Below, one piece after another: positions 13,701 to 45,134 of a stretch of DNA of 45,134 nt. This DNA is from Methanobrevibacter sp. (GTDB lineage Archaea > Methanobacteriota > Methanobacteria > Methanobacteriales > Methanobacteriaceae): the NCBI GenBank assembly GCA_017434555.1, contig JAFRFB010000028.1:1-45134 (forward strand). Direction: 5' to 3'. The notes under the pieces were generated by a model, which was not told where the DNA came from, made no database searches, and saw only the letters and a program-made list of their open reading frames with translations. The position numbers and the translations under genes are program-made. The stretch's first letter is position 1. Every line of letters begins with the position of its first letter.

Positions 13701-13977
13701 GGTACTCTATTTTTCTAAAATCTTTAAATTAATAATTATGATTTATATCAAAAATAAAGAGAAATTATTATTTTTTTTAAATGAAATAAAAGTTCTGAGT
13801 CCTTTATTTATTTGTAAAATTAAAATGATGTATTTAATTTTTTACATTATACCTATTTTTATAACAATTTAAGAATTTTTCAATGAAAAAGTTTATTAAA
13901 TACCTTTATTATATATTAACACTGGAAATTGTACTTATGTTATTTTTCTATTTTTTATAATAATTATGGGTGAGGAA

Positions 13978-25570: not shown

Positions 25571-25651
25571 TAAAACACCTTAGATAAATATAATAGATAT
25601 AAATATATTTTTCAATATTTATATAACTTGTTTTTTTATAGGCTGAATTTA

Positions 25652-25703
25652 TTACTTATAACTTATAAGTTTTAAAATTCTTATCACTTATAACTTATAA
25701 CTA
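25652..25703. repeat. ACTTATAAC repeat cluster between gatA and the HAD gene
   Basis: ACTTATA occurs at least four times here, including the perfect palindrome ACTTATAAGT at 25661-25670 and the stretch TTATCACTTATAAC near 25681. The same wording recurs in the long array upstream of parA (34690-35117). It lies in the divergent promoter region of gatA and the HAD gene. Confidence 0.6.
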
Positions 25704-25742
25704 TGAATAGATTTAATAATTATTTTTTCAATATTAATTAAT

Positions 25743-26537
25743 ATGAAAAAGGCTATTGTTTTTGACAACTCCGGAACGTTAATAGAGCGTTATAGGGTTA
25801 TCAAGGATGTGACTTCAGGAAAATTATTTACAGATATCAATTCTCTTGACTTGATAGACCAGACAGATTCTCTTGCATTGGTTGTCCTTCAGTATAATAC
25901 AAATAAGCTACTGGATTTAGACCCGGATACATTGCTTTCAGATGTCATTAAGGAGTTTGACATTGACTTTGATATAAGTTTCACTAACTTTAAAACCAAT
26001 AAAGAAGAGGTTAAGGATATTTTATTCAATGAAAAATTCGCCGTTATATCAGATATTACTGACGGATTTCCAATTTTGAGAAAAAAAGTCCCACATATGG
26101 AGTTATGTAATGGTTCCGCTGTTATATTGGATATGCATCTGGGAATTATCTCATATACCATAACTTCAGCAGGCAAATTGTTTGACGGTGTTCAGGAGAC
26201 TATTGGAGATTTACAATCTCAGGGTTATGAAATAGTATTGGCTTCAGGAGATAGGAAAGGTGCCATCAACAGGTTGGCTGAAATGCTCGGTGTTAAAAAG
26301 GATAATGCTCACGGAAGTGTTTCAACTCGAGGTAAATGTGAAGTAGTCAAATCCCTTCAGGATGATGGATATCAAGTAATGATGGTTGGAGATGGTTTAA
26401 ACGATGTTATGGCTTTTAACAGGGCTGATGTTAGCGTATTGACTATTGAACAGCAGGAAGAAGTCTCACCCAAACTAATGGACAAGACTGACTATATCAT
26501 TGAAAGCATTCGTGAAGTTTCACAAATTGACTTCTAG
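25743..26537 (+). CDS. HAD-superfamily phosphatase, soluble P-type ATPase-like
   Basis: This 264-residue cytoplasmic protein has the HAD motifs: motif I FDNSGTLI (nucleophile Asp8), motif II LASGD (about 160-164), a Lys (GKCEVVK) and motif III GDGLNDVMAF (about 219). The wording of motifs II and III and the helical segment between them resemble the phosphorylation domain of P-type ATPases, and archaea encode such soluble forms. The residue two places after the nucleophile is Ser, where most HAD phosphatases have a second Asp as general acid, so activity may be altered. A cap-like insertion covers about 20-130. No ribosome site precedes the ATG. It overlaps its convergent neighbour by 4 bases. 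Confidence 0.75.
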   Translation: MKKAIVFDNSGTLIERYRVIKDVTSGKLFTDINSLDLIDQTDSLALVVLQYNTNKLLDLDPDTLLSDVIKEFDIDFDISFTNFKTNKEEVKDILFNEKFAVISDITDGFPILRKKVPHMELCNGSAVILDMHLGIISYTITSAGKLFDGVQETIGDLQSQGYEIVLASGDRKGAINRLAEMLGVKKDNAHGSVSTRGKCEVVKSLQDDGYQVMMVGDGLNDVMAFNRADVSVLTIEQQEEVSPKLMDKTDYIIESIREVSQIDF

Positions 26538-27256
26538 ATATTTTCTTCAATTACCTTTTTACTTTTCAAGATATTGTCAAAGTTATTGAGTTCTATAATT
26601 CCTTTTTTGACTTTTTTAAGCAGTTTTAAATCAAGTGTTCCATCACCAAGTGGAATATGCTGGTCTTTAACTCCGTCATTATCGTTTAAATGGCAATATG
26701 TTATGTTTTTTAATTTTAAAAGCTCTTCATTGTTCCCGGTTGTATTTCCATGACCAACATCAATTGTTAAGTTACATCCCGTTTGGCTTTGAATGAATTC
26801 CAGCTCTTCAATTTTATTTCCAAGAAAAGCTCTTCGAACAGGCATGTTTTCAATTGAAATAATCACATTTTCTGCATGATCAACCAATTCTCCTACACTT
26901 TCACAGGCTAAATCCATTGCCGCTTTTCTAAGTGGAGGGTCATTTCTGCCAATTTTTCCCAAATGAACTGTTACTGCATTTGCATTAATGCTTTCTGCAT
27001 AGTCAATACATTCTTTCATCTGTTTAACACTTTCAGCTCTAATTCCTTCATTTAAACTAGCTATATTAATGTCTACTGTTGGTGCATGAATTGATACTTC
27101 GAGTCCACAGTCTTTAAAAGCCATAGTATTTTCTTTTTTAAAGAAAGGTGATTCTCCAAGGATTTCAATCATTTCAAAGTTATTTTCACCTGCAGTTTTA
27201 ATAATTTCCAAATTGTCATCCATAAACATAGCCAATGTTGTAAAACCGATTTTCAT
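26534..27256 (-). CDS. Sugar phosphate isomerase/epimerase-like TIM barrel (AP endonuclease 2 family)
   Basis: This 240-residue protein has the xylose isomerase-like TIM barrel pattern: MKIGFTTLAMF, the FEMIEILGE strand, VSIHAPTVD, AVTVHLG, ISIENMP, LTIDVGHGN and YCHLNDNDG. His and Glu/Asp residues at the strand ends (HAP, VHLG, IENMP, DVGH and HLND) could bind two or three metal ions, as in endonuclease IV and hydroxypyruvate isomerases. Length is shorter than endonuclease IV, favouring an isomerase or epimerase over DNA repair. Substrate is unknown. It faces the HAD gene tail to tail with a 4-base overlap. Confidence 0.75.
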   Translation of the reverse strand: MKIGFTTLAMFMDDNLEIIKTAGENNFEMIEILGESPFFKKENTMAFKDCGLEVSIHAPTVDINIASLNEGIRAESVKQMKECIDYAESINANAVTVHLGKIGRNDPPLRKAAMDLACESVGELVDHAENVIISIENMPVRRAFLGNKIEELEFIQSQTGCNLTIDVGHGNTTGNNEELLKLKNITYCHLNDNDGVKDQHIPLGDGTLDLKLLKKVKKGIIELNNFDNILKSKKVIEENI

Positions 27257-27431
27257 ATTATTAATTTTGAAATTTATACTATTTTTATATTTTCAAATGA
27301 CACACTAATTTACTTAAATATTCGATTAAAATAATTGATAAAAATATAAGATAATGGCTTAAATTATAGCATTAATTTAATATTATTAATGAACCACTCT
27401 ACCTGCCCATAATTGATGATGTTGATGTGGA

Positions 27432-29528
27432 TTAATTGTATCTCACATGGTAGATTTTATAATTCTCTTTTTGATATACTTTTTCAAAAGTAACATTTTC
27501 ATTATTTAAAAGCTCCAAATCCTTTTTAGTTGAAATATAGCTTACATTTAATTTTTCCAAATCATTAACATTAAAATTGACTAAGAATGCATCTGGTGAG
27601 AGAAGATCAAATGTTGTATTTGTACTGTTTTGGAAATCAACGATAACATGTGCGTATCTATTATAGACTTCTTCGTTTTCACCATTTGGATCTAAAATAT
27701 GCCATTTATCTAAATCCGGATAAACGTTAACAGAATTAATTGTATTTGCTCCGGCTACAATCAAATAGTTAATTGGAATATCTCCTGCTAACCATTTTGC
27801 ATTAGGATTATCGTGAACAATGCTTTCCACTTCATTGATGAAATCGTTTTCTAAAACAACATCTGTGCCCTGATCAATCGGATTAACTAAAAATCCTGCG
27901 GTAAATGAGATTAAAATAACGCAGATTAAAAAGACTGTTTTTCCTTTTTTGGAATGGGCCATAAAAATTGAGCTGAATGTAATCGCATAAATAATGACTA
28001 AAACTATTATCATCCACATATGATAGTAATTGTGATAGAAAAATGTTGATAAATAAACTACAACTACAGATAATATTGCAGATGCAATTATAATCAGTTT
28101 TTTGGCTTTTACTTCTTTTAAACTAGCCAGTGACCTTATTAAGATTAAAACACCAATAAAACCAACAACACTAAAGAGCCTGGTTGTTTTCATGTGATCT
28201 CTTAAAGTAAGTGATATTATAGGGTCAGGTAACGGAATGAAATAAAAGATTAGAAATACAAAGTATAAAGATAAAAGACCACATAAGAGTTTGTCTTTAG
28301 TTTTTTGATAAATTAAAACAATTAATGATAATATGACAGGAACCGGGAAAAAATCAATAAATACGGAGTTTTCAACTACATTTAATGGAACGTTTACATC
28401 AGTCAATGGGAAAAATATGGATGCAAGATAATTGAATAAAACGCTCCACTCACCTCCGCCGTTGAATCTTTCCCCACTTGGATATACAGTATTCATTATT
28501 ATTTTTATCGTATCTAATGAATTGTTTAAAATATGAAGCATTATTATTCCTAATATGGCCATTGAAGCAATTATTATCAATAAATCTTTTTTATTATATG
28601 AAAAATTATTTTTATTCTTTAAAAATATCCAGATAGCCATCAGCACAAATACATAGGCGAAAGGTATTTGCCATGAAGGATAAAATACAATTAAAAATCC
28701 GCCAATGCAGACTATCATTAAAAAGGCATATATGATTCTTTTTCTATAATCTTCTGTATTAATATAGAAATGAATTAATAAGACACCTAACTGACCAAAA
28801 ATTAACTGTTCGACCAGACCATTAATTGCAAACCACCATTGAACCAACGGAGACAATACAATTAATATTGTATAGGATAAGGATAATACTTTATTCCTGT
28901 TAGTTATTAGCATTCCCATTTCAAATGAGACTAGTGTCAAAACAAGCAATCTGCTTACCCAGAAAAAGGACAATCCCATTGCCTGATTTAAAAATAAATA
29001 TCCAATATAAAATGGTCTAAAAATAACAGCTACATCTAAAACCGCTTGTCCGTATATTATAAACATATCTGTTGGTGCTGCCCTGACAATATCGGAAAAA
29101 TAAGCAAAATTATTGTGATATTGGGAAAATCCAAATAAAGTATTCACAATATACTCGTCACTTCTAATATGTCTTGAAATACCAAGCAATACTTTATGAT
29201 TCACACCAAAGATATTAAGCTCGTTAATTGAAGAGCCGTGAATTTGAAATATCACACATAGTGCAATCACTGCAATCGAAAGATAATATCTGTATTTATA
29301 AATAAAATCAAGTGATTTTTCTCTTAAATTTTCATCATACAGTATTCTAAAGACTAAAAATGATAAGATAAATAATACTATAAATTTTTTTAAGGAAAAT
29401 AAGGCCAATAAATTTGGCATATCTAATCTAGATTCGACCCCAATTATATAGATTTCAACAAAAAATGATATTAAAATACCTGTAATAATTGGAAATAGAT
29501 ATTTTTTATGCTTATCATTCAAATTCAT
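27432..29528 (-). CDS. Polytopic membrane protein, GT-C glycosyltransferase-like
   Basis: This 698-residue protein has roughly twelve or more membrane helices across about 10-530 and a soluble C-terminal domain of about 160 residues (about 540-698), which contains several Asn-rich sites and should face outside. After the third helix comes SDEY at about 123-126, an acidic pair in the first outer loop as in GT-C enzymes that use polyprenyl-phosphate sugars. That layout suggests a glycosyltransferase acting on surface glycans or glycoproteins, or a flippase-like protein. I cannot assign a substrate. There is no operon partner: about 175 bases of AT-rich sequence separate it from the epimerase-like gene and about 200 from leuA. 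Confidence 0.65.
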   Translation of the reverse strand: MNLNDKHKKYLFPIITGILISFFVEIYIIGVESRLDMPNLLALFSLKKFIVLFILSFLVFRILYDENLREKSLDFIYKYRYYLSIAVIALCVIFQIHGSSINELNIFGVNHKVLLGISRHIRSDEYIVNTLFGFSQYHNNFAYFSDIVRAAPTDMFIIYGQAVLDVAVIFRPFYIGYLFLNQAMGLSFFWVSRLLVLTLVSFEMGMLITNRNKVLSLSYTILIVLSPLVQWWFAINGLVEQLIFGQLGVLLIHFYINTEDYRKRIIYAFLMIVCIGGFLIVFYPSWQIPFAYVFVLMAIWIFLKNKNNFSYNKKDLLIIIASMAILGIIMLHILNNSLDTIKIIMNTVYPSGERFNGGGEWSVLFNYLASIFFPLTDVNVPLNVVENSVFIDFFPVPVILSLIVLIYQKTKDKLLCGLLSLYFVFLIFYFIPLPDPIISLTLRDHMKTTRLFSVVGFIGVLILIRSLASLKEVKAKKLIIIASAILSVVVVYLSTFFYHNYYHMWMIIVLVIIYAITFSSIFMAHSKKGKTVFLICVILISFTAGFLVNPIDQGTDVVLENDFINEVESIVHDNPNAKWLAGDIPINYLIVAGANTINSVNVYPDLDKWHILDPNGENEEVYNRYAHVIVDFQNSTNTTFDLLSPDAFLVNFNVNDLEKLNVSYISTKKDLELLNNENVTFEKVYQKENYKIYHVRYN

Positions 29529-29734
29529 ATGTTAATTTTTTATATATTATCTTATATTATCTTTTTTAATTCCCAAAAAATAAATTCAAAAATTAAGTTT
29601 TTGAATTTTATATACATTTTTAATAATTTTATGTTATAAATTAGTCATTTAGATAGTTTTTTTATTTTTTCAACGATAACTATTAATAGATATAAAAAAA
29701 TAATTATAAAGTATACCCTAATGGAGATTTTACT

Positions 29735-31261
29735 ATGGATATAAAAAAAATAAAAAGTGAATTTATGAATCTTGCAGATGAGATTTATATTTTTGATACA
29801 ACTCTCAGAGATGGTGAACAAACTCCGGGTGTCGCTTTAACTGTAGATGAGAAAATTCAAATTGCTCAAAAACTTGACAGTTTAGGGGTAGATAAAATTG
29901 AAGCAGGATTTCCTGCATCATCTAATGGTGAACTTCAAGCTTGCTCTAAAATCAAATCCTTGGATTTGGACTCTACTATTGTAGGTTTGGCACGAAGTGT
30001 TAAAAATGACATCGATGCTGTCTTGGATGCGGATTTGGAATATGTTCATTTATTTATTGGTACTTCTCCATTGCATAGAGACTATAAATTAAAAATGTCT
30101 AAAGAAACTATCATTTCTACAGCGGTGAGCGCTGTTGAATATGCTAAAGACCATGGTTTGGATGTGGAATTTTCAGCAGAAGATGCTACTAGAACTGAAA
30201 AGGATTTTTTATTAGATTTTTATAATTCAGTCATTGATGCTGGAGCGGATTTTATAGATATCCCCGATACAGTAGGTGTTCTCACTCCAGTATTTACAAA
30301 AGATTTAATGACTTATGCAAAATCTTATTTTAAAACTCCTATAAGTGTTCATTTTCACAATGACTTTGGTTTGGCTACAGCTAACTCTTTAACAGCTATT
30401 GAGTGTGGTGCTAATCAGACACATGTAACTGTTAATGGTATGGGTGAACGTACTGGAAATACTTCACTTGAAGAAATTGTTATTGCTCTTCATTCCGCTT
30501 ATGGAATTAACCTAAACATCGATACTTCACAATTATATAGTCTATCTGAATTCGTAGGCAGATTAACTGGTGTAAAAATGCCAGTAAACAAGCCAATTGT
30601 TGGAGAAAATGCATTTGCTCACGAATCAGGTATTCATGTTCATGGTATTTTGAATAATCCATTTACATATGAACCTATTTCACCGGAATTGGTTGGTCAT
30701 TCAAGAAAGATTTTTTTAGGTAAACACACAGGGGCTAATGCTTTAAAATCTAAATTAAAAGATTATCACATTGAATTAGACGACAATCAATTTGACACGG
30801 TATTTAATCAGATTAAATCTTTAGGTGATAAGGGTAAATGTATAACGGATGATGATTTAAAAGCTATTGCGTTAACGGAACTTGGTTCCGCTCGAGAAAA
30901 ACCTATTAAATTAAAAGGATTAGGTTTATTATGTGGAGCTGTCGTTTCTCCTACAGCAACAGTAAAATTAGAAATTGATGGAGTTGAAAAAGAAACTTCA
31001 AATACAGGTGTGGGGCCTGTTGATGCTGCAATAAATGCTATTCGTGATCTTATTAAAGACACTATGAATATTGAACTTGAAGAATACAATCTGGAAGCAA
31101 TCAATGGTGGTACTGATGCATTAGCAGATGTATTCGTAATATCTTCAGATGATGAAGGCAATAAATCTACTGGTAGAGCTATCAATGATGATATTGTCAT
31201 GGCTAGTATTTTGGCGGTATTGGACTCAATTAATAAGCTATTATTAATTAAAAGGTCTTAA
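29735..31261 (+). CDS. leuA: 2-isopropylmalate synthase
   Basis: This 508-residue protein condenses acetyl-CoA and 2-ketoisovalerate in leucine synthesis. The catalytic barrel (about 15-280) carries the [14 protein letters not shown] motif with its metal-binding Asp, [11 protein letters not shown], the HFHNDFGLA metal pair and [12 protein letters not shown] linker and the C-terminal LeuA dimer/regulatory domain (about 375-505, with [11 protein letters not shown] and [12 protein letters not shown]) follow. EAGFP rather than a citramalate-synthase-like sequence, and close wording to archaeal LeuA as I recall it, favour LeuA over CimA or homocitrate synthase. A GGAG ribosome site lies 9-10 bases before the ATG. 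The gene for Alba follows after 43 bases. Confidence 0.86.
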
Positions 31262-31304
31262 ATAACACAATTTAACGAATAATTCTATAAAAGGAGAGTT
31301 AAAC

Positions 31305-31571
31305 ATGGAAGAAAACACTATATTTATAGGTAATAAACCGGTTATGAACTATGTATTGGCTGTAGTAACACAATTCAATGAATTCGATTCTGTTACTTTA
31401 AGAGCTAGGGGTAAAGCTATTAGTCGTGCTGTAGACACGGCAGAAATCGTTAGAAACAGTTTTGTTCAGGAAGCCGATGTTACTGATATTCAAATTTCAA
31501 CTGAAGAGGTTGAAAACTACAATAATGAAAAAACTAATGTTTCTATTATTGAAATTAAATTAGAAAAATAA
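31305..31571 (+). CDS. albA: DNA/RNA-binding protein Alba
   Basis: This 88-residue protein is a member of the Alba family of archaeal chromatin and RNA-binding proteins. It shows [21 protein letters not shown] at the start (with the conserved K before PVMNYV that is an acetylation site in Sulfolobus), then [20 protein letters not shown], and C-terminal strands. It acts as a dimer. An AAAGGAGAG ribosome site precedes the ATG. With the histone at 17.6 kb, the window encodes two chromatin proteins. It converges on the PHP gene with 4 bases between stops. Confidence 0.93.
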
Positions 31572-31575
31572 ATAA

Positions 31576-32232
31576 TCAAATTTTCTTCAATACTTTATAA
31601 TCAAATAAGTATTTGGATAATCTGATATTCGAAGTACCTTTTCCAAGGGCTTCCACTTTACCTTTTTTTATTGCTTTTAAAACACTGTCAATGTCTTTTT
31701 CACAATCTATTTTTGAATAACAGTCACCTACAAATTTATAGTAGTGTGCATCACTAGCTCCAAGTCCGGGCAAATTTTCATTTTTTGATAATTTTTTTGC
31801 TTTGTTATTACAGTAACCTACAATAAAACGTGCATTTTTAGTTTCAATAGCGTCAATTTTTAAGTCTTTATAATCAGCTTTACACAATAGTCCATGTCTA
31901 TAAAAACAGTATGGATGAGGTATTATTGCAAGAGCCCCTTGGTCATGAATCAAATCTATTGTTTCTGGGGCCGGTAAATCTCTTTCAATGTATTCTTCAC
32001 ATCCAAAGCCTAAAATATGACCTTCAAGTGAAGATATTTCAATTGAGGGAATTACAAGCAAATCGTCATTTTTTGTTAGTTTTCTTGCTTCTTTAGAACC
32101 TTCAACGGTATTGTGATCACTGATTGCGATTATATCAAGGTCTCTGCTTTTAGCTACTTTAAATATATCTTCTAACTTTGCTTTTGAATCAGGTGAATAT
32201 TCACTGTGAATATGCGAATCCATCTTATACAT
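31576..32232 (-). CDS. PHP-domain metal-dependent phosphoesterase
   Basis: This protein of about 218 residues has the PHP signature: DSHIHSEYSPDS near the start, AISDHNTVEG, the IPSIEIS Glu, IIPHPY, ETKN and LGASDAH, which together supply the His/Asp/Glu cluster for three metal ions. Stand-alone archaeal PHP proteins of this type act on nucleotides or small phosphoesters; the substrate is not known. The start is the ATG at 32232, after GAGG with 6 bases between; the TTG upstream overlaps that site. It overlaps the preceding DUF1786 gene by 8 bases and is translated from the same transcript. Confidence 0.83.
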   Translation of the reverse strand: MYKMDSHIHSEYSPDSKAKLEDIFKVAKSRDLDIIAISDHNTVEGSKEARKLTKNDDLLVIPSIEISSLEGHILGFGCEEYIERDLPAPETIDLIHDQGALAIIPHPYCFYRHGLLCKADYKDLKIDAIETKNARFIVGYCNNKAKKLSKNENLPGLGASDAHYYKFVGDCYSKIDCEKDIDSVLKAIKKGKVEALGKGTSNIRLSKYLFDYKVLKKI

Positions 32233-33262
32233 TATATTCCTCAAGAGCTTTAATTAATCCTACAGTCCCTGTCATCATAACATCACCGCCAGGACATGCA
32301 TGATGCCAGTCAAGATTTGTTTTTTCAATCAATTCACGTTTAGGGCCTGTAACTATCACTTTTTCAATTTTACTTATTGGATTTATTACATGGGCACCAT
32401 GACCATGGTCATTATAAACCTCTTCATTGGTTATTATTCCTTCTGCCAGACGTTTTAAATAATTTTCCAAACTTTCTGGTGTTAGGGAAGATGTGTGATG
32501 TTCAAAAATTCCCTGTATTTTTCCATTTTCTATTGATGCTGCAGTTGTATGGCCGTTTCCTATATCTATTGCTATAAAGCTGTTTAATTTTTCTGCATCA
32601 TCGTCATAGCACATTCCGGTTATTGATGCAAATTTTGTGTCCATTAATAATGGCTTTATTTCAATTCCTTCATTTTCAACAGATCTTTCAACAGCTTTCA
32701 TTCTTGTGTAATAATCAGGAACGTTTCCCTTAAATGCAAATTCTTCTGGTTTTATTGGTTCGGACAACATTTCACGGAATTTTTCAAATCTGAAGTCTCT
32801 ATCACCCATATTTTCATTGTATCCGTGGTCCTGAACAGCTATTGCTATTTCATCAAAATCAAACTCTAAATCATAACCTAAAAGGAATTCGGATAATTTA
32901 GTAATATTTATATCTCCCAAAGCTATTTTCGTAAAGTCTTTGTATTCTTTATCCGGTGAAGCTATCTCTATTCCAATAGCTTCAACTTGTGATAATTTAT
33001 CTCTGATTGTTTTTGCCGGAACTTCTTCCATTACAACTTTATATCCTTTTTCCATATGTTCCAAAAGTGTGTTTTTAATTTTTCCTCCGCCCATTATTTC
33101 TCCAGTAAAATAAAGGTCATTTTCTATTTCTCTTACTTGTTGGGAGATATATAAATGAGGAGAAGGCAGTACAATTTTAATTGAATTTTCCAATTCTTTT
33201 TCATCATCATATACCATTATGTCTTGCGTTCCGGTTCCTACATCAATAGCTAAAATTCTCAT
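32225..33262 (-). CDS. DUF1786 family protein, ASKHA-like fold
   Basis: This 345-residue protein contains two phosphate-loop-like segments, LAIDVGTGTQDIMV at the N-terminus and FIAIDIGNGHTTAAS near 225, as in actin-like ATPase folds. It has two metal-rich runs, DHGHGAH and the C-terminal CPGGDVMMTGTVGLI. The arrangement matches DUF1786, sometimes annotated near pyruvate formate-lyase-activating or methanogenesis genes, but without a proven function. It is the upstream partner of the PHP phosphoesterase, with which it shares 8 bases. The divergent intergenic region of 93 bases toward trpB2 contains TGTACA boxes that could affect both directions. Confidence 0.72.
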   Translation of the reverse strand: MRILAIDVGTGTQDIMVYDDEKELENSIKIVLPSPHLYISQQVREIENDLYFTGEIMGGGKIKNTLLEHMEKGYKVVMEEVPAKTIRDKLSQVEAIGIEIASPDKEYKDFTKIALGDINITKLSEFLLGYDLEFDFDEIAIAVQDHGYNENMGDRDFRFEKFREMLSEPIKPEEFAFKGNVPDYYTRMKAVERSVENEGIEIKPLLMDTKFASITGMCYDDDAEKLNSFIAIDIGNGHTTAASIENGKIQGIFEHHTSSLTPESLENYLKRLAEGIITNEEVYNDHGHGAHVINPISKIEKVIVTGPKRELIEKTNLDWHHACPGGDVMMTGTVGLIKALEEYNV

Positions 33263-33300
33263 ATTATTTTTTATTGATTTTATTTTATTAAAATATTAAT

Positions 33301-33336
33301 TGTACATTTTTGTACAACAAAGCTTTAAATAGTACA
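33301..33336 (+). promoter_or_regulatory. TGTACA (TRP box-like) operator and promoter of trpB2
   Basis: TGTACA occurs at 33301-33306 and 33311-33316, ten bases apart on the same face of the helix, and AGTACA follows at 33331-33336. A TATA-like TTTAAATA lies at 33324-33331, placing the transcript start near the ATG at 33356, with almost no leader. In Methanothermobacter the repressor TrpY binds TGTACA boxes in the trp operon and at trpB2, so this is probably its homologous operator. Confidence 0.7.
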
Positions 33337-33355
33337 TTTAATATAATATGTTAAC

Positions 33356-34657
33356 ATGAATTACAAGATTACTTTAGATTCCGATGAAGTGCCTAAAAAA
33401 TGGTATAATATTTTGGCAGATTTGCCTAAAGCACTTCCGGAACCAAAAAATAGTGAGGGTAAAAATCAGATTGCAGATTTACAAAAAGCATTTACCAAAT
33501 CCGCTTTAGAACAGGAATTTGCTTCTGATAGGTATATTTCTATCCCTAAAGAAGTTAGAGAATTATATATGCAAATGGGTAGGCCTTCACCTTTATTTAG
33601 AGCTACTAGGCTTGAAAAATTTTTAAATACTCCTGCTAAAATTTATTATAAAAGAGAAGATACTTCTCCTACAGGATCCCATAAATTAAATTCAGCTATT
33701 CCACAAGCTTATTTTGCTAAAAAAGAAGGCGTTGAAAGGTTAACTACTGAGACTGGTGCTGGCCAATGGGGTACTGCATTATCACTTGCTTGTAATATGC
33801 TTGATTTAGATTGTACTGTTTATATGGTTAAAGTTTCTTTCAATCAAAAACCTGACAGAAAAAATATCATGCATATCTATAACAGTAATGTTTACGCTTC
33901 ACCAAGTGAAAATACTCAAATAGGTAGAGATATCTTAAAAGAAAATCCAGACCATCCAGGTTCTTTAGGTGTAGCTATTTCTGAAGCTATGGAAGAAGCT
34001 TTACTTAATGAAGAGGTTAAATATTCATTAGGTAGTGTTTTAAATCATGTTATGTTACATCAAACTCTAATAGGTCAGGAAATTAAACTCCAGCTTGAAA
34101 AAGCTGAAGAAGAAGCTGATGTCATGATTGCCTGTGCTGGCGGTGGAAGTAATTTGGCCGGATCATTTTTCCCATTACTTAAGGATAAGTTAGATGGAAA
34201 TTCAGACACTGAATTTATTGCAGTTGAACCAAGCGCATGTCCAACATTGACTGAAGGTACTTATGATTATGACTTCGGTGATGTTAACGGCTTTACTCCT
34301 ATGCTTAAGATGTTTACTCTAGGACATGATTTTGTTGCTCCTACAGTTCATGCTGGCGGATTAAGATATCATGGAATGTCTCCAATTGTTTCATTATTAA
34401 CTAAAGAAGGATATATTTCCCCTAGATCAGTTCATCAAAAAGATGTATTTGAAGCTGGAATTACCTTTGCACGTAATGAGGGTATTGTTCCTGCACCTGA
34501 AACTACTCATGCTATTAAAGTAGCTATTGACGAAGCATTGAAATGTAAACAGACCGGTGAAGAAAAAACTATTGTCATGAACTTCTCAGGTCATGGTATG
34601 CTTGATTTAAAAGGATATGCATCTTATTTTGAAGGTACAATGCAAAATGCAAAATAG
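33356..34657 (+). CDS. trpB2: Tryptophan synthase beta chain, TrpB2 type
   Basis: This 433-residue PLP enzyme condenses indole and serine to tryptophan. It is the long TrpB2 form, marked by the N-terminal extension and the RPSPLFRATRLE segment. The PLP lysine is Lys110 in TGSHKLNSA, ETGAGQWG follows, and the CAGGGSN phosphate loop is near 260. TrpB2 proteins usually lack a TrpA partner interface; no trpA is present here. The gene is alone, with an operator-like TGTACA pair upstream and a hairpin terminator immediately after the stop, so it appears to be an independent tryptophan-regulated unit. Confidence 0.92.
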   Translation: MNYKITLDSDEVPKKWYNILADLPKALPEPKNSEGKNQIADLQKAFTKSALEQEFASDRYISIPKEVRELYMQMGRPSPLFRATRLEKFLNTPAKIYYKREDTSPTGSHKLNSAIPQAYFAKKEGVERLTTETGAGQWGTALSLACNMLDLDCTVYMVKVSFNQKPDRKNIMHIYNSNVYASPSENTQIGRDILKENPDHPGSLGVAISEAMEEALLNEEVKYSLGSVLNHVMLHQTLIGQEIKLQLEKAEEEADVMIACAGGGSNLAGSFFPLLKDKLDGNSDTEFIAVEPSACPTLTEGTYDYDFGDVNGFTPMLKMFTLGHDFVAPTVHAGGLRYHGMSPIVSLLTKEGYISPRSVHQKDVFEAGITFARNEGIVPAPETTHAIKVAIDEALKCKQTGEEKTIVMNFSGHGMLDLKGYASYFEGTMQNAK

Positions 34658-34690
34658 TGTGATTTTTCACACTTTATTTTTTTTATAGTA
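34656..34690 (+). terminator. Hairpin-T terminator of trpB2
   Basis: AGTGTGA (34656-34662) pairs with TCACACT (34667-34673) around a four-T loop and runs into a T-rich tract with an unbroken run of eight T. It begins on the last two bases of the stop codon. Confidence 0.7.
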
Positions 34691-35117
34691 ATAACTTATA
34701 ACTTATAACTAATACTTATTTCTTATTACTTATCACTTATAACTAATAACTTATCTCTGAAAACAAATACTTTATAAGGTTGAAGTTATAAAATATAACT
34801 TAATAGTTAAAAGTTAAATCTTTTAACTTATTAATAATAACTTAAATGTTAAAAGTTATTTCATATAACTTATTCATATTAACTTAAAATTTATCACTTT
34901 TAAGTTTGAAGGTTTAACTTATCAATTCTAAGTTATTCCTTCGTTCTTAGAAGTTTTAGGCTAAAATTTTGAAGTTATTCATGTTAACTTATAATTTATC
35001 TCATTTAAGTTGGGGGGTATAACTTTTTTGTTATACCTTTTAACTTAAAAGTTCATGTTAACTTATAATTTATCTCATTTAAGTTGGAGGATATATTGCA
35101 TATCTTCTAACTTAAAT
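34691..35117. repeat. AACTTA inverted-repeat array upstream of parA (candidate centromere/operator)
   Basis: About 430 bases contain more than twenty copies of AACTTA or TAAGTT. Many are arranged as perfect inverted repeats: AAGTTATA/TATAACTT (34783-34801), AGTTAAAAG/CTTTTAACT (34805-34828), AACTTAAAA/TTTTAAGTT (about 34881-34906) and GGTATAAC/GTTATACC (35016-35037). A longer direct repeat of 36 bases occurs exactly at 34978-35013 and 35052-35087, with a degenerate third copy at about 34873-34909. No open frame runs through it. It sits between the trpB2 terminator and the ribosome site of parA, a position typical of parS or parC sites and operators of segregation genes. Confidence 0.7.
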
Positions 35118-35142
35118 ATGATTTTGATAGGAGAATTTTTTA

Positions 35143-35919
35143 ATGAGCGAAGTAATAGCAGTAATGAATCAAAAAGGAGGTTGTGGAAAGACTACTACTG
35201 TTGTTAATACCGCAACTTCACTTGCAGTAATGGGTAAATCTGTTCTGGTAGTGGACATGGATCCTCAGGCTAATGCAACAACAAGTTTTGGTATTGATAA
35301 AAACGAGTTAGAAAATACCATTTATGATGCAATCATAGGGGATATAAATGTCAAAAAAGCTACAATTCCAACATTTATAAAAAATTTATTCATTATTCCA
35401 AGTAATATTTCATTAAGTGGGGTAGGCGTTGAGCTAAGCCAGAAAGAAAATTATCATATTATCTTAAAGGAAACACTTAAAGACGTTATTCCACTGTTTG
35501 ATTACATATTCATTGATTTACCTCCTTCATTAGGTGTAATTACCGTAAATGCATTAGTTGCATCTGATAGTGTATTAATACCAATTCAGGCTGAATATTA
35601 TGCACTTGAAGGTGTTGCGGATTTAATTAACACCATTAAACTTGTTGAACAGAGACTTAAAAGTCCAACACCAATCAAAGGTATTTTACTTACTTTATAT
35701 GATAAAAGGACTAGATTAAGCAGAGATGTTTACAAGGAACTTAAAAGTTACTTTGGTAAAAGCAATCTTTTATTTAAGACTATCGTACCAAGAAATATCA
35801 GATTGGCTGAAGCACCAAGTTTCGGAAAACCATGTTTGATATATGATCCAGATAGCACTGGAACTAAAGCCTATTTAAAATTAGCAAAAGAAATTTTAGA
35901 AAGGGACGGAAGTGATTAG
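35143..35919 (+). CDS. ParA/Soj-like segregation ATPase
   Basis: This 258-residue protein has a deviant Walker A KGGCGKT at 11-17 with the signature first Lys, a Walker A' DMDPQANAT (about 39-47) and the FIDLPPSLG Walker B (about 125-133). It carries no N-terminal DNA-binding extension, so it is the short chromosomal Soj type rather than a plasmid P1-type ParA. In bacteria such ATPases bind DNA non-specifically and are driven by ParB. An AGGAGA ribosome site is at 35129-35134. The next gene starts one base after its stop and encodes a protein with a ParB-type ParA-stimulating peptide, which fixes the pair as a functional unit. Confidence 0.9.
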   Translation: MSEVIAVMNQKGGCGKTTTVVNTATSLAVMGKSVLVVDMDPQANATTSFGIDKNELENTIYDAIIGDINVKKATIPTFIKNLFIIPSNISLSGVGVELSQKENYHIILKETLKDVIPLFDYIFIDLPPSLGVITVNALVASDSVLIPIQAEYYALEGVADLINTIKLVEQRLKSPTPIKGILLTLYDKRTRLSRDVYKELKSYFGKSNLLFKTIVPRNIRLAEAPSFGKPCLIYDPDSTGTKAYLKLAKEILERDGSD

Positions 35920-35920
35920 A

Positions 35921-36481
35921 ATGACACGTGGGCTTGGCAAAGGATTAAATTCTTTAATACCAGAAATTTATGACGAAAATTTTGACAGTAATGGGGCTCA
36001 ATCATTAGAGGATATCTTAAACGAAAAATCAGATGAAGATATTGCTGAAAAAGAAACTAATGAGGATATTGTCGTTGAAGAAACTGAAAAAGATGATAAT
36101 AATGAGCCTGAAGTAGATGAAGTAGATGATAATGATGAAGAAGATAATGACGAATCAAACGAAACGTCAGATAAGAAAATCCAAGAAAAAGACGATGAGG
36201 ATACTAGCCCATCCAAAGACGTATCTGGCGATAAAGATACTGAAGAAGGGTTATCAGATTCACAAGATGTCAAAAAACAAGAAAATGTAGCTGAAGTTTT
36301 AGATATTGTTGATAAAAATCCAAGAATAACATTGTGGTCTTCAAGATCTGCTGCAGTATTTAGATATTTAAGAAAAACTGAGCCAGAATTTAGTATTAGT
36401 CGTGAGGCTTCTATATTAATTGATGAAGCAGTTTCTAAAAAATATCCTGATATCTGGGATTTATTTGAGGATTTAAAATAA
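35921..36481 (+). CDS. Short acidic partner of ParA with a ParB-type N-terminal peptide
   Basis: This 186-residue protein starts MTRGLGKGLNSLIPEIYD. That sequence matches the GLGKGL-xx-LI peptide at the N-terminus of ParB/Spo0J that stimulates ParA. After it comes a very acidic, low-complexity stretch of Asp, Glu, Ser and Asn (about residues 25-120). The protein then ends with a conserved-looking helical region of about 55 residues (ITLWSSRSAAVFRYLRK and SISREASILIDEAVSKKY). The CTP-binding and helix-turn-helix domains of ParB are absent. The C-terminal part could be a ribbon-helix-helix-type or other small DNA-binding dimer, but this is not clear. The ATG at 35921 lies behind AGTGAT; a GTG three codons earlier overlaps parA. 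It is tail to tail with the radical SAM gene, with no gap. Confidence 0.72.
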   Translation: MTRGLGKGLNSLIPEIYDENFDSNGAQSLEDILNEKSDEDIAEKETNEDIVVEETEKDDNNEPEVDEVDDNDEEDNDESNETSDKKIQEKDDEDTSPSKDVSGDKDTEEGLSDSQDVKKQENVAEVLDIVDKNPRITLWSSRSAAVFRYLRKTEPEFSISREASILIDEAVSKKYPDIWDLFEDLK

Positions 36482-37597
36482 TTAAAAATTTTCTAACAAG
36501 CTTTGGTAAGCTCCGTCTATTTTAATATATTTTTCAGCCCTGTCAATAACCACACCTAATTTTTTTAATTCATTTTTATTTTTAAAGGGCATTTTTTTTC
36601 TAATAGAAATTATTTTTCTGGCAGATTTTACACCGATTCCTGGTACACGAATCAGTTCCACAAATGGTGCGGAGTTAATTTCTACAGGAAATATATCCAT
36701 ATTTTCTGCAGCCAGAATCTTCGGATCTTGTGTTAATGAAAGTTGGTTGTTTTCATCAAATACTAATTCATTAAGTTTAAAATGATAATCATTAAGTAAA
36801 CTGTCTGCATTATATAATTTTGCGGTTCTATCTGTACTGCAAGCTTCTTTATTTTCGAAATCTGTCTCTTGAATTGGTGAAAATGCTGAGAAGTATGTTC
36901 TCTTTAATTTAGTTTTATTGTATATTTTTTCCATTCTATGTAGAATTTCCCTGTCACTTTCATCATTTGCACCGACAATTAATTGGGTGGTGTGGGTAGA
37001 GTTTGGATATGTAGTACTTTTGCCATGTAAATTATCAATCCATTTCAATCTTTTTAGGATATCTTTATTATAATCTTTTGTAGATGACAGTTCAGCAAGA
37101 CCTGATGGTGTAGCAGCTTCTATATTAATACTGACTCTATTTGCAAGTGCCATCGCTCTTTTAATTGAATCTTTGGAAGCTCCAGGTACAATTTTTAAAT
37201 GTATATAATCATCATATCCATAATCTTTTCTTAGGATTCTAATAGTTTCTATTGTTTTTTCCATTGTAAGATCTTCATTTTTATCAACACCTGAACTTAA
37301 AAACAAACCGTTTACCAAACCTCTATTGTAATAGTTTAGAAATGCATTTGCAAGTTCTTCGGGTGCAAGTTCAAGTCTTGTAAAGTTTCTTTTTGATTGG
37401 TTAATACAGTATTTACAGTCATTTTTACATTTATTGGTTAATAAAGTTTTAAATAGTGGAATTTGACAGCCATTATTTCCAGTAGCATGATAAATTCCAG
37501 GCAGATTGACTTGTGAACTTTTGTTATGATTGACATAATCACATAAATCATACTGTGCTGAATCAGTTAAAATTTTCATCTTCTCTAAAGTACCCAT
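36482..37597 (-). CDS. Radical SAM protein with a C-terminal helix-hairpin-helix domain (putative DNA modification/repair)
   Basis: This 371-residue protein has a radical SAM cluster motif CKNDCKYC (Cys57, Cys61, Cys64) that holds the 4Fe-4S centre. The barrel covers about 50-280, with GLFLSSGV, LKIVPGAS and the THTTQLIVGAND segments. The last about 60 residues, with IRVPGIGVKSARKI, form a ComEA-like helix-hairpin-helix that binds DNA or RNA. This composition is that of the family annotated as putative DNA modification/repair radical SAM proteins, usually found beside a DUF4130-type partner; no such partner lies here. The start is uncertain between ATGs at 37597 and 37579. Confidence 0.82.
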   Translation of the reverse strand: MGTLEKMKILTDSAQYDLCDYVNHNKSSQVNLPGIYHATGNNGCQIPLFKTLLTNKCKNDCKYCINQSKRNFTRLELAPEELANAFLNYYNRGLVNGLFLSSGVDKNEDLTMEKTIETIRILRKDYGYDDYIHLKIVPGASKDSIKRAMALANRVSINIEAATPSGLAELSSTKDYNKDILKRLKWIDNLHGKSTTYPNSTHTTQLIVGANDESDREILHRMEKIYNKTKLKRTYFSAFSPIQETDFENKEACSTDRTAKLYNADSLLNDYHFKLNELVFDENNQLSLTQDPKILAAENMDIFPVEINSAPFVELIRVPGIGVKSARKIISIRKKMPFKNKNELKKLGVVIDRAEKYIKIDGAYQSLLENF

Positions 37598-38199
37598 ATA
37601 ATATTAATTATATTTTTTGATATTTATTTTTATTCAAATAATTATATTAGCCTACAATTCAAGTTATTGGATATTTTTTGGCTACAATAGAAAATATTTT
37701 TTTTCTAATTTTCTGTTCGTTATCTATGAAATTATTAGTTTATTTGTAAAGTACCTATAATAACAGTGTTATAAATTGATATTGTCAACTTTTTTTAAAA
37801 TTATTGTTCATAAAAATAAAATTATATCAAATAGATAGTAAATTGATTAATTTATAAATATTTTATTATATATATGTATAGTTTATATATAATAAGCAAT
37901 AATAGAGTAATATTAAGCTATGTTCTTATAAACTATGTTACGATATATTGGATAATTAGCTTATAAAAAAAATTAATAATGTGACATTATACTGACTAAA
38001 ATCAAGATTTATATAAATCCATTGAGTTGGTTATATAATTTAAAATTCACGGTGATGAGGTAGTTATATAATATTTTTTCCCGCTTTTTTAAAACAAGCA
38101 TCATATTATTAATTAATGAGGTTTAAATTAAGAGAGATATTAAAAAGTCAACTAATATATAGGTGATATATAGTTTAAAATAATTATTCAGGTGAATTT
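37598..38199 (+). promoter_or_regulatory. AT-rich leader and promoter region of the adhesin-like gene
   Basis: The gap is about 600 bases of AT-rich sequence with several TATA-like stretches. The best placed is TTTATATAAA at 38008-38017, which would start transcription near 38040 and leave a leader of about 160 bases. A GGTGATGAGG at 38052-38061 resembles a ribosome site, but no open frame follows it. The ribosome site for the adhesin gene is AGGTGA at 38190-38195. I see no tRNA or other RNA gene. Confidence 0.5.
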
Positions 38200-41100: not shown

Positions 41101-44100
41101 AACAATGCTTCAAATAAGACTAAAGTTCTTGAATCTAATTTTGAAGTTGAAAAGATTACCATTACACCTCTCGTCACTCTCGGCGATCAGGTTACTTTCC
41201 AAATTGTTGTAAGAAACACAGGATTAACAGATTTAACTGATGTATTCATTGAAGAATCAAGTTATGATGGATTGATATTTAGCCATAACTTAACCCAAAC
41301 TCACTGGAAACATTCCATTGTAAATGGTAAACATAGATGGACATTAATAAACAAATTGGGTGTAGATGAATTGGCTTCATTAACTTTGGTCTTTAACACA
41401 ACTAAAGAGGGTAATTTCACTAATGTTGTTGTTGCAGGCAGTAATGAAACTGAAAATAAAACAGCCAAAAATAATACAACTGTAGTGACACCTAAATTCG
41501 CTGTTGAAAAGCTTAGTTTAACTCCATTTGTTAGTGTCGGTGACCAAGTAATCTTTGAAATAGTTGTAACTAATACAGGTTTAGTAGATATAACAGACAT
41601 GTTTGTTGAAGAATTTGAGTATGACGGTTTGGTATTTGATTATGCTTATCGTTTAGGTAATTGGGTTAAAGATAATAATGCGAACATATGGAGATATTCA
41701 AAAGTTTTAACTCCAGGTGCGGTAACTAGTTTCTTTGTAGTCTTTAATACTACCAAAGAAGGTAATTTCACAAACATTGTCGTTGCAGGTGCTAATAAAA
41801 CTGATAATAAGACAGGTAATAATACTACTGAGGTTGTTGAGCCTAAGTTTGTTGTTGAAAAGCTTAGTTTGAATCCTTTGGTTGCAGTTGGTGATCAGGT
41901 TACATTTGAAATTGCCGTAACCAATACCGGACGCATAGATTTAAATGGAGTTTTTGTTGTTGAATCTGAGTATGACGGTTTGGTATTTGACCATGCTTAT
42001 GGTTTAGGTGATCATTGGGTTGAAAGTGTTGAAGATAATAAGCATAAATGGACTTATAAAGATGTGTTGACTCCTGGTAAAGCTCATGGTTTCTTTGTTG
42101 TATTCAATACTACTAAGGCAGGTAATTTCACAAATGTAGTTGTAGTCGGTGCTAATAAAACTGATAATAAGACAGGTAATAATACTACTGAGGTTGTTGA
42201 GCCTAAGTTTGTTGTTGAAAAGTTTAGTTTGAATCCTTTGGTTGCTGTCGGTGAACAGGTTACATTTGAAATTGCCGTAACCAATACTGGTGAAATTGCT
42301 TTGAAAAACTTGTTCGTTGTTGAATCTGAGTATGACGGTTTGGTATTTGACCATGCTTATGGTTTAGGTGATCATTGGGTTGAAAGTGTTGAAGATAATA
42401 AGCATAAATGGACTTATACTGATGTATTGAATCCTGGTAAAGCTCATGGTTTCTTTGTTGTATTCAATACTACTAAGGCAGGTAATTTCACAAATGTAGT
42501 TGTTGCCGGTGCTAATAATACTGAAAATAAATCAGCCAATAATACTACTGAAGTTGTTAAACCTGAATTCAGTGTAGAAAAAATAGCTTTAGATCCTGTT
42601 GTTCATGTAAATAATTTAACTAAATTTGAGATTGTTATTCAAAACACTGGAAAAGTACCAATAACAGGATTATTCTTAGAAGAGACAGATTATCAAAATT
42701 TAACTTATAAAACATTTATAGATACTGATGACTGGTTTTATGTAATAAATGAAAAATACTCCTGGACATATCCAAAGGTTTTAAAGCCAGGAGATATTGT
42801 AACATTAATAGTTGTATTCAATGCAACTGAAGTGGGTAATTGGACAAACACAGTAACTGCAGGTGCAAAAAATGTTGAAAACAAAACTGCAAACAATACT
42901 ACTGAAGTTCTTGAAAATCCACCATATGACCCAGAATGGAATGCAACTAATCCGAATATTAGTATTGAAAAAATTGCATTGGACAATTTAGTCATAATAG
43001 GCAACACTGTTATATTTGAAATTGTTGTCCGCAATACTGGAGATAAAAGATTACATAATGTTACAGTTCATGAAAAATTCGATGACGGTTTGGAATTTAT
43101 CCGCATGATTGATAATTCGGAATTATGGATTGATAATAATGATTTAAGCTTTACATTAAATAGTACACTCTATAAAGGTGAAACACTTAAGTTTTATGTT
43201 GAATTCAATACAACCAAACTAGGTGTTTTAAGAAATATTGTAAATGTAAGCTCAAATGAAACCGAAAATAAAACTGCAAATGATACAGTTGAAGTAGTTG
43301 AGCCTAAATTAGAAATTAATAAGGTGGCAGTTAATTCTACTGTATTTGTAGGTAGTCAAGTAGTATTTGAAATCCTTGTTAGAAATACTGGAAAAGTAGA
43401 TTTAAACAATGTATTAGTTAAAGAAACTTCCTATGATGGTTTGACCTATGATGGATGGTATGATGATACAGGTTTATGGACTAAAAACAACGATTTAAGC
43501 TGGTCTTTAAAACCTAAATTGGTGTCTGGTGAATATCTTGGTTTCTTTGTTGTTTTCAATACTACAAAAGTAGGTAATTTCACTAATGTTGTTGTTGTAA
43601 AATCTGATGAAGTACCTAATGAAACAGATAATGATACTGTGAAAGTTTTAAAACCTGAATTATCAATAAGTAAAGTAGCAATTAATAATATTGCAGAAAT
43701 CGGAGATCAAGTAACCTTTGAAATTCTTGTTCGAAATACTGGTCAGGTTCCTTTAAATAATTTGGTAGTTAATGAAACTTCATTTGATGGTTTAATTTAT
43801 GACACATGGCATGATGACACTGGCTTATGGATTAAAAATAATGATTTAAGCTGGTCTTTAAAACCTACTTTATCTGTTGGTGAATATCTTGGTTTCTTTG
43901 TTGTATTCAATACTACAAAAGTAGGTAATTTCACTAATGTTGTTGTTGTAAAATCTGATGAAGTACCTAATGAAACGGCTAATGATACTGTAGAGGTATT
44001 TAAACCTGAATACACAATTGAAAAAGTTACTATTAATCAAACAGTTCTTGTCGGTGAACAAGTAATTTTCGAAATCGTTGTTCATAACACTGGTAAAATA

Positions 44101-45134
44101 AATATTAATAATATCACTGTCACTGAATCAGAATATGATGGCTTAATCTATGATGGATGGTATGATGAAACTGGTTTATGGGCTAAAAACAATGATTTAA
44201 GCTGGACTTCAAAATATGATATATATCCTAATGGAATTATCGGATTCTATGTGGTATTTAATACTACTAAAGAAGGTACTTTCGAAAATGTAGTCGTTGC
44301 ACAATCAGAAAAACTTCCAAATAAAACTGCAAATGACACAGTAGACGTATTAAAACATGAATTAACAGTTGAAAAGATTACTGTAAACAATACAGTCGTT
44401 GTTGGAGAACAAGTAATATTTGAAATTATTGTAAGAAACTCTGGTGGTGTCGATTTAAATAATGTAACTGTCCGTGAATTAGAATTCAATGGTTTAACAT
44501 ATGATTCATGGTTCGATTACACTTCCAAATGGATTAAAAACAATGATTTAAGCTGGACTTATAATTCAACTTTACCATCAAATAAACATGGTTATTTCTA
44601 TGTTGTATTCAATACTACAACTGCGGGTAATTTCACTAATATTATTGTAGCTAAGAGTAATAATACTAATAATACTTATGCAAATAATACTACAACTGTT
44701 ATTGGCGCTGATTTAGCTATTAAGAAGTTTGTAAGTAATTCCACTCCTAATTTCGGAGATGTTATTGAATGGACTATTGTTGTCGTTAATAATGGACCAG
44801 CTGATTCAAAAGGTGCTTATGTGATTGATAAGTTGCCTGTTGGTTTGGTTTATCAGTCTGATGATTCTGAAGGTAAGTATAATCCAACTACTGGTCGTTG
44901 GGATATTGGTGATTTAGCGTTTAATGAGACTGTTACTTTAGTAATTAAGACTTTAGTAAACATTAGTAATGCTACTATTTTGAATGTGGCTACTGTTAAT
45001 AGTAGTACTTATGATCCTAATGAGACTAATAATGTGGGTAATAATACTACTGATGTTAATCCGGCTGCTGATTTGGTTGTTGAGAAGTTTGTAAGTAATT
45101 CTACTCCTAATTATGGTGATGTTATTGAGTGGAC
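38200..45134 (+). CDS. Adhesin-like surface protein with beta-helix and DUF11-type repeats (3' end outside window)
   Basis: The frame is open from the ATG at 38200 to the window end, 2311 complete codons without a stop. Residues 1-25 are a signal peptide (hydrophobic core, likely cleavage after VCA). About 165-585 is a right-handed beta-helix with repeated NCTF, NNTA and GGA motifs. About 590-740 is an Ig-like region. From about 743, two DUF11-type domains of 120 residues, ten related units of about 115-120 residues (FxVEK at each start, first at 41140, last at 44359), then two more DUF11 copies at 44707 and 45067, the last cut by the edge. N-glycosylation sites are dense. This matches Methanobrevibacter adhesin-like proteins, thought to bind other cells or surfaces. 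No anchor is visible because the C-terminus is missing. Confidence 0.9.
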   Translation, partial: MKGKSILYILLLLIILSASIGIVCASEDIADSTTDSYSPDEIVIYEGTSEVSSHASSDEAENDVSLGVTNDVSFKENESKNTSQIASAESKSLLGISNEEDYVLQARVIPVTGMWFGDVRNAIDQADNGDIIDLGGREIVGSYPNGNPSISTDKQLTFINGIFNAGNVTSININKRNFIQNCKFENITFKNFNDTCMYPNFFINCTLRHVTFENFTLAVAGFVIRNSDLYDVNFTNCHSLAPEDENDYEYAAMAVTYNSVLDHCNFVNCTTNRHSGAICIAGENGNRVDVFNSNFINCSAGVGGAIYVHGNKAINENYHSNIINCTFIGNSATQRGGALGSSQNYLVVKNCTFENNTAKQGAAYMLAGISHGLDGIPEGHYNTIVDCYFRNNTGTEEGGAVHITGNNNAFVNCTFWDNYATNGNGSAIYIHGENSSVIDSDFHEHECSRGTVFIIGNNTLIDGSTFDNNSASRGGAGVYVVGYNTLVNNSVFNNNDAIYHGGALHSEGDNLRVLNSNFTSNTAIASTDNMEQGLGGAIYIKGNNSNISQSYFENNIARNGSAIYNRGQNLTIEDDTFIENQAWSYLLTTVSDKERIYYDPDGVVTINVTHKGGDNIINAIYNDGSPDNIFFLNVTYESSLNKTQNTGNVVINPVDGVEKSENGTLIYQDAREDLQNITIIVTHLETGHVVINFTSQTGILGNTSVSERGLLPGNYSVNVTHIEDGLYKFITNTTYFEILPVADLAIEKFVSDKTPDFGDEIVWTLKVTNNGYNDATNAYVIDKLPNGLIFVDSDGNYNATTGRWDIGDLAYNETVYLKIRTVVNITNTTILNIATVNSSTYDPNETNNIANNTTKPNTLADLAVIKLVSKETSVIGDEIVWTIVVTNNGPDIAVNAYAIDKLPSGLLYKSDDSQGKYNSTSGRWDIGDLAKGDTATLKIITKINTDNTTIVNNVFVNSSTPESNTTNNNASNKTKVLESNFEVEKITITPLVTLGDQVTFQIVVRNTGLTDLTDVFIEESSYDGLIFSHNLTQTHWKHSIVNGKHRWTLINKLGVDELASLTLVFNTTKEGNFTNVVVAGSNETENKTAKNNTTVVTPKFAVEKLSLTPFVSVGDQVIFEIVVTNTGLVDITDMFVEEFEYDGLVFDYAYRLGNWVKDNNANIWRYSKVLTPGAVTSFFVVFNTTKEGNFTNIVVAGANKTDNKTGNNTTEVVEPKFVVEKLSLNPLVAVGDQVTFEIAVTNTGRIDLNGVFVVESEYDGLVFDHAYGLGDHWVESVEDNKHKWTYKDVLTPGKAHGFFVVFNTTKAGNFTNVVVVGANKTDNKTGNNTTEVVEPKFVVEKFSLNPLVAVGEQVTFEIAVTNTGEIALKNLFVVESEYDGLVFDHAYGLGDHWVESVEDNKHKWTYTDVLNPGKAHGFFVVFNTTKAGNFTNVVVAGANNTENKSANNTTEVVKPEFSVEKIALDPVVHVNNLTKFEIVIQNTGKVPITGLFLEETDYQNLTYKTFIDTDDWFYVINEKYSWTYPKVLKPGDIVTLIVVFNATEVGNWTNTVTAGAKNVENKTANNTTEVLENPPYDPEWNATNPNISIEKIALDNLVIIGNTVIFEIVVRNTGDKRLHNVTVHEKFDDGLEFIRMIDNSELWIDNNDLSFTLNSTLYKGETLKFYVEFNTTKLGVLRNIVNVSSNETENKTANDTVEVVEPKLEINKVAVNSTVFVGSQVVFEILVRNTGKVDLNNVLVKETSYDGLTYDGWYDDTGLWTKNNDLSWSLKPKLVSGEYLGFFVVFNTTKVGNFTNVVVVKSDEVPNETDNDTVKVLKPELSISKVAINNIAEIGDQVTFEILVRNTGQVPLNNLVVNETSFDGLIYDTWHDDTGLWIKNNDLSWSLKPTLSVGEYLGFFVVFNTTKVGNFTNVVVVKSDEVPNETANDTVEVFKPEYTIEKVTINQTVLVGEQVIFEIVVHNTGKININNITVTESEYDGLIYDGWYDETGLWAKNNDLSWTSKYDIYPNGIIGFYVVFNTTKEGTFENVVVAQSEKLPNKTANDTVDVLKHELTVEKITVNNTVVVGEQVIFEIIVRNSGGVDLNNVTVRELEFNGLTYDSWFDYTSKWIKNNDLSWTYNSTLPSNKHGYFYVVFNTTTAGNFTNIIVAKSNNTNNTYANNTTTVIGADLAIKKFVSNSTPNFGDVIEWTIVVVNNGPADSKGAYVIDKLPVGLVYQSDDSEGKYNPTTGRWDIGDLAFNETVTLVIKTLVNISNATILNVATVNSSTYDPNETNNVGNNTTDVNPAADLVVEKFVSNSTPNYGDVIEW
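41821..42540 (+). repeat. 360-base tandem repeat inside the adhesin gene
   Basis: Bases 41821-42180 and 42181-42540 are near-identical units with a period of exactly 360 bases (120 codons); long stretches, such as 41966-42050 against 42326-42410, match base for base. The divergence is concentrated at a few short blocks. Similar 360-base periodicity links 43561 with 43921 and 44707 with 45067. Confidence 0.8.

Follow-up and report, generated by a model that had tools for sequence, protein, structure and literature searches.

A 45,134-nucleotide contig of Methanobrevibacter sp. (JAFRFB010000028.1; the window, meaning the whole stretch of DNA that was analysed) carries a gene for a ParA-type ATPase, a small gene behind it and a dense array of short repeats in front of it, which raises the question of what system these elements form and whether the array could be its centromere. 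The initial annotation described a Soj-like ParA followed one base later by a 186-residue protein, and we verified both reading frames and their spacing. The first gene, segA (35143-35919, forward strand), encodes a ParA/Soj-type ATPase of 258 residues with a deviant Walker A motif, KGGCGKTTT. The second, segB (35921-36481, same strand), encodes an adaptor and candidate centromere-binding protein of 186 residues; its ATG at 35921 lies one base past the end of segA, and an alternative GTG at 35912 would make the two genes overlap. SegA matched Pfam PF13614 (E = 7e-63), and its best PDB matches were the ParA family protein 8ray (4e-72) and Soj (6iub, 1.5e-62; 1wcv, 8e-55), whereas the match to Sulfolobus SegA (7dut, 4e-17) was far weaker. 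Judged by sequence, SegA is a bacterial-Soj-like ParA, and a protein search found it to be the sole ParA of its own genome.

The partner protein had been said to lack the CTPase and HTH domains of ParB, and this held: Pfam and NCBIfam contained no model that matched the 186-residue protein, and neither a ParB HTH nor a ParB/Srx CTPase domain was found. Searches with its C-terminal 60 residues identified the ribbon-helix-helix (RHH) domain of SegB (36293-36478, forward strand). The last 59 residues matched Saccharolobus SegB (7dv2/7duv) with an E value of 8e-6 as a single sequence and 3e-10 as a 21-row profile, and the putative DNA-contact strand is near-invariant across the order. We take this sequence test as decisive, and what had been described as a short helical C terminus is a SegB RHH domain. 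RHH dimers place a beta-ribbon in the major groove, and this conserved region, homologous to a DNA-binding domain, is a candidate for the array-binding part that the initial annotation had assigned to it. Structure prediction was less informative. The AlphaFold model of the SegB monomer placed helices roughly where expected, with a mean pLDDT of 53.5 for the full protein, and Foldseek returned no significant fold match for either the full model or the domain model; the top match of the domain model was the SegB–DNA complex 7dv2 (E = 0.81, not significant), the query being a monomer model of an intertwined dimer.

These results identify the gene pair as SegAB, a known archaeal chromosome-segregation system, and not as an unknown pairing of ParA with an adaptor: SegA is a Walker-type, ParA-like protein, segB adjoins segA, lying 3' of it also in the loci inspected from other genera, and the C terminus of SegB has RHH homology. 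The build of the system, which had been called unusual, is already on record, as segA–segB cassettes have been reported in both Crenarchaea and Euryarchaea, including, by name, M. thermautotrophicus (PMC5120986, PMC12284271).

Both ends of SegB are constant: an N-terminal LG.GL(D)(A/S)LI motif on one side and the RHH domain on the other, with a linker between them. The motif, GLGKGLNSLIP, spans residues 4-14 (35930-35962, forward strand), and all 22 SegB proteins compared, from 18 genera, keep its core LG.GL..LI unchanged. The linker (35963-36292, forward strand) ranges from ~25 to ~170 residues across genera, is predicted with low pLDDT and is acidic in Methanobrevibacter, as the initial annotation had noted. 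That annotation also recognized the N-terminal motif as the ParA-stimulating peptide of ParB. As a single query, the peptide found no match in the PDB. When a profile of 14 SegB N termini was searched against all PDB sequences, residues 1-18 of Thermus Spo0J (1vz0; MSRKPSGLGRGLEALLPK) came out on top, at the same place in the protein, with an E value of 0.064 over 22 positions that is suggestive and not significant by itself. The N-terminal segment of ParB binds and activates ParA (role described in PMC12462528), and the peptide of SegB may stimulate SegA likewise. The published view that SegB has no similarity to ParB may therefore be worth revisiting in this order, at least for the N terminus.

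Directly upstream of segA, a main array of 49 contiguous heptads in one register, with the consensus TAA(C/G)TTA, occupies 34712-35054. An in-phase scan with a position weight matrix scored it at 180.7 bits, compared with a maximum of 17.5 among 60 shuffled windows. It is flanked by an upstream shoulder of 4 heptads whose register is shifted by 1 (34685-34712, 21.6 bits) and a downstream shoulder of 8 heptads in a new register (35059-35114, 21.8 bits), which stops just 5' of the segA ribosome-binding site. Across the window, 28 heptads agree with TAASTTA in at least 6 of their 7 positions and 21 of them share one 7-bp register; 1000 dinucleotide shuffles gave a mean of 7.9 heptads and a best-register maximum of 6. 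The more than twenty AACTTA/TAAGTT elements counted earlier amount to 17 exact six-mers (13 + 4), or 24 five-mers (AACTT/AAGTT), and chiefly form single-register heptads instead of the perfect inverted repeats first described. Their density greatly exceeds chance, with 17 six-mers in 460 bp compared with a shuffle mean of 1.85 and a maximum of 6. Three direct repeats are present as reported, with a unit of 44 nt and not 36; they lie on the forward strand at 34873-34916, 34978-35021 and 35052-35095 (identities of 82, 100 and 95%, respectively) and are composed of heptads.

Inside the array lies a conserved TATA-box-like block, ATACTTTATAAG (34767-34778, forward strand). The block recurs in the majority of same-genus loci and also in Methanothermobacter-type genomes, there 47-59 bp 5' of segA; it is a candidate segAB promoter. 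A second, weaker heptad cluster (25624-25704; 22.2 and 18.2 bits, both above the shuffled maximum of 17.5) is intergenic, 9 kb from the main array, and has a counterpart in genome G012 at 11727-11854. An Rfam search of 25500-37700 gave no match. Elsewhere in the window, two blocks of 351-360-bp tandem repeats (41410-42558 and 43357-44426) probably encode repeated domains of a large surface protein.

A SegB profile found matches in 107 of 114 Methanobacteriales genomes, covering all 18 genera; the genus and species labels of the numbered genomes (Methanothermobacter-type and so on) are our presumed assignments. The array, proposed earlier as the centromere and still a candidate for it, was present 5' of segA in 29/29 same-genus loci with readable upstream DNA. 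Loci with enough upstream sequence had 11-21 hits per 460 bp, compared with a shuffle mean of ~2. When the same-genus loci were pooled, distances of up to 90 bp fell on multiples of 7 in 642 of 750 same-orientation cases, and the register was shared in 498 of 562 opposite-orientation cases. Because units on opposite strands keep one register, direct and inverted copies represent a single pseudo-palindromic unit centred on C or G. The consensus also held in flanking heptads that had been left out of the anchoring. In the same-genus arrays, heptad quality correlated at 0.45 for lag 2 and 0.25 for lag 1, a hint of 14-bp pairing.

Among the genera, nine of Methanobrevibacter type carry long arrays, with z-scores at multiples of 7 of 4-15 outside the own genus and as high as 19 inside it. 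The arrays of Methanothermobacter-type genera are short, and the remaining genera have few heptads only. At segA itself, no heptads were found in the Methanothermus-type genome G127; in the Methanosphaera-type genomes, neither segA nor segB was detected in G103, and matches to the heptad pattern in G106 were at control level only. Five same-genus genomes gave no SegB match (G005, G087, G017, G021 and G044). G017 has segA. In G005 and G087, contigs C4 and C3 end inside the heptad array, at 80555 and 6094, respectively; we attribute these cases to assembly breaks and rejected a real loss of segAB, which can thus be absent from draft genomes by artefact. The contig survey covered Methanobacteria plus mis-binned records, and one contig labelled Bacilli bacterium (JAFRZY010000007.1) has a Methanobacteriales-type SegB match and is likely mis-binned.

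To place the array on a chromosome, we scanned the whole same-genus chromosome G030 (1,853,160 bp, of which 15,000 bases read N). It contains a single array of 76 heptads (358 bits); the next best run scored 22.0, on a par with a reversed control (21.5). The array and cdc6-1 are 22.8 kb apart, and the minimum of the cumulative GC skew (1,257,455) falls between them. In the window, the cdc6/orc1 initiator gene (13966-15135, forward strand; TIGR02928, E = 8e-119) is 20 kb from the array and marks a candidate replication origin. The gap upstream of it (13329-13965) contains, by eye, several ACACTTGAAA-type repeats and is a candidate origin with mini-ORB-type boxes. Among 14 complete genomes, the distance between segAB and cdc6-1 is 10-86 kb in 12, and 202 and 308 kb in the other two.

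The Methanothermobacter- and Methanothermus-type genomes showed a different arrangement, with 4-7 short heptad sites within ~94 kb of segAB. A pattern of three heptads with up to 3 mismatches found five sites over 75 kb of G124 (1,751,377 bp) and none elsewhere, and a control pattern found 0. The predicted sites, at 1286879, 1294865, 1317950, 1337245 and 1362083, have 4-11 heptads each; one is the segA promoter, and the distal ones lie 31.1, 23.1, 19.3 and 44.1 kb from it. Sites cluster near segAB in like manner in G120, G126, G119, G121, G125, G127, G113 and G117, and most distal sites fall between genes or at their edges. In G127 (1,243,342 bp), six sites of at least 5 heptads lie at distances of 31-94 kb from segAB; three (1075248, 1080650 and 1092041; loci L193 and L194) share longer, near-identical flanks indicative of a small duplicated element. 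As the genomes are related, conserved synteny and clustering are not independent events, and their apparent significance is inflated. The initial annotation had missed this origin proximity, along with the SegB domain, the strict 7-bp register and the conserved distribution.

A canonical ParB encoded elsewhere could in principle be the partner of this ParA. Genomes of the M. smithii, M. millerae and M. thermautotrophicus types gave no canonical ParB_N protein. The own genome gave five short ParB_N (PF02195) hits, four of them over the cut-off, three on contig C72 (4634-4828, 12879-13046 and 14467-14634) and one each on C133 (23618-23863) and C111 (91732-91905). We rejected these as partners: they are frames of 203-253 residues, possibly mobile-element proteins, and no second ParA was found. 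None of the three outcomes that the initial annotation had named as counting against its reading was seen.

Comparison with known partition systems helps to interpret the array. The Sulfolobus SegAB system shares the segA-then-segB order and a homologous C-terminal RHH domain. In Saccharolobus/Sulfolobus, binding sites lie upstream of segAB and are clustered around it (PMC12284271). Its SegB sites, TCTAGA-S-TCTAGA, are scattered and mostly intragenic (PMC12284271), whereas the TAA-S-TTA units here are either strung together in long contiguous arrays or grouped in short sites, most of them intergenic. The Sulfolobus-type motif TCTAGASTCTAGA had no match in the window with up to 2 mismatches, which implies that SegB specificity must have changed; euryarchaeal SegB sites are expected to differ (PMC12284271), and we did not take site sequence as family-defining. 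The Sulfolobus motif has AGA-S-TCT at its core and repeats every 7 bp (PMC12284271); TAA-S-TTA matches it in length and in its C/G centre.

Sulfolobus SegB has been reported to wind around DNA in a left-handed helix like omega (PMC9178275). In the delta-omega system of plasmid pSM19035, every omega RHH dimer binds a single 7-bp repeat in either orientation, and activation of the ParA ATPase requires four or more contiguous repeats (PMC9499535). That system likewise pairs a ParA with a small RHH adaptor that has an N-terminal ParA-activating region, as predicted for SegB, and its parS likewise consists of contiguous 7-bp repeats in both orientations that overlap promoters (PMC9499535). It differs in being plasmid-borne with the heptad WATCACW, whereas the arrays here are chromosomal, with the heptad TAASTTA and up to 76 heptads. 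The omega minimum of four is reached in the window (49), in G030 (76), at the G127 sites (at least 5) and at the G124 sites (4-11). Omega was absent from the PDB search results for SegB, both as single sequence and as profile, which returned SegB instead; the system here resembles that of omega in anatomy, and we do not claim membership. With bacterial ParABS (Soj–Spo0J–parS) it shares the Soj-like ATPase, a putative Spo0J-type N-terminal peptide and sites clustered near the origin; it differs in an adaptor without CTPase or HTH domain and in a heptad array in place of the 16-bp parS palindrome.

One alternative is that the heptads are an operator only, through which SegB or another regulator controls segAB, with the centromere elsewhere. 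RHH proteins are often autorepressors, the Methanothermobacter-type site straddles the TATA-like box 47-59 bp 5' of segA, and regulation was also left open by the authors of the Sulfolobus study (PMC12284271). However, 49-76 heptads across 350-530 bp would be excessive for an operator, and several genera have comparable sites at distances of 19-94 kb from segAB, so we consider this explanation unlikely. The same distal sites, tens of kilobases away, might instead suggest that the heptads serve a different origin-proximal protein, such as a nucleoid protein or condensin loader, and lie near segAB by synteny only, given that SegB–heptad binding is itself inferred. Yet in most genomes the sole or largest array is directly 5' of segA, and the near-invariant putative contact strand of SegB, a homologue of a DNA-binding domain, is matched by a near-invariant heptad; we regard a different protein as very improbable.

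Least plausible of all is a functionless, AT-rich tandem repeat generated by slippage. Similar heptanucleotide repeats do occur elsewhere, for example in two IMG/VR contigs with 5 exact heptads, which we set aside: by eye they have no ParA or SegB among their open reading frames and resemble simple TATAAGT repeats. Against slippage, diverged units hold register and consensus in both orientations across nine Methanobrevibacter-type genera, the G030 scan found one array per chromosome, and dispersed short sites with differing flanks keep the same core.

We therefore favour, with a probability of about 80%, a chromosomal SegAB partition system in which a SegB-coated heptad array is the origin-proximal centromere and the N-terminal peptide of SegB triggers the SegA ATPase. 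This reading draws on the domain homologies, the heptad register, its conservation and the clustering near segAB and usually near cdc6-1; from these we infer SegB–heptad binding, ATPase stimulation, movement and autorepression. Each SegB dimer would take one 7-bp TAASTTA through its C-terminal RHH domain, and dimers would coat the in-register array, like omega on pSM19035. The omega precedent, DNA wrapping by Sulfolobus SegB and the equal heptad length and C/G centre all point to such tiling. The coated array would act as a centromere ~20 kb from the replication origin. There, many N-terminal peptides on flexible acidic linkers could stimulate the ATPase of nucleoid-bound SegA, and duplicated origins would be drawn apart along a SegA gradient by a diffusion-ratchet. 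The TATA-like block within the array suggests autorepression too: since the array and the putative segAB promoter overlap, the same SegB binding would probably repress segAB.

What is new here is the DNA array and not the gene pair. In the open-access literature we found neither prior reports of the array nor binding or segregation experiments on these proteins. The nature of archaeal centromeres and SegAB variation in Euryarchaea have been listed as open questions (PMC5120986), and a SegAB study from 2025 did not identify convincing SegB sites in the vicinity of segAB in a euryarchaeon (PMC12284271). For a whole order of methanogens we now predict a short, exact motif with genome coordinates, and the predictions reach a genome like that of M. 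thermautotrophicus deltaH, for which genetic tools have been reported (PMC8609365). With these findings, heptad-array partition would reach beyond plasmids to archaeal chromosomes, and related species that have dispersed sites or one long array form a natural comparison. We think it likely that methanogens of this order share a chromosome centromere whose binding unit is TAASTTA, laid out as several short, parS-like sites near the origin in Methanothermobacter- and Methanothermus-type genomes and concentrated into one array of ~50-76 heptads in Methanobrevibacter, where SegB would be a mosaic of a bacterial ParB-type peptide and an archaeal RHH domain. The array of this gut and rumen methanogen has the look of the docking site, or centromere, long sought for SegAB in methanogens.
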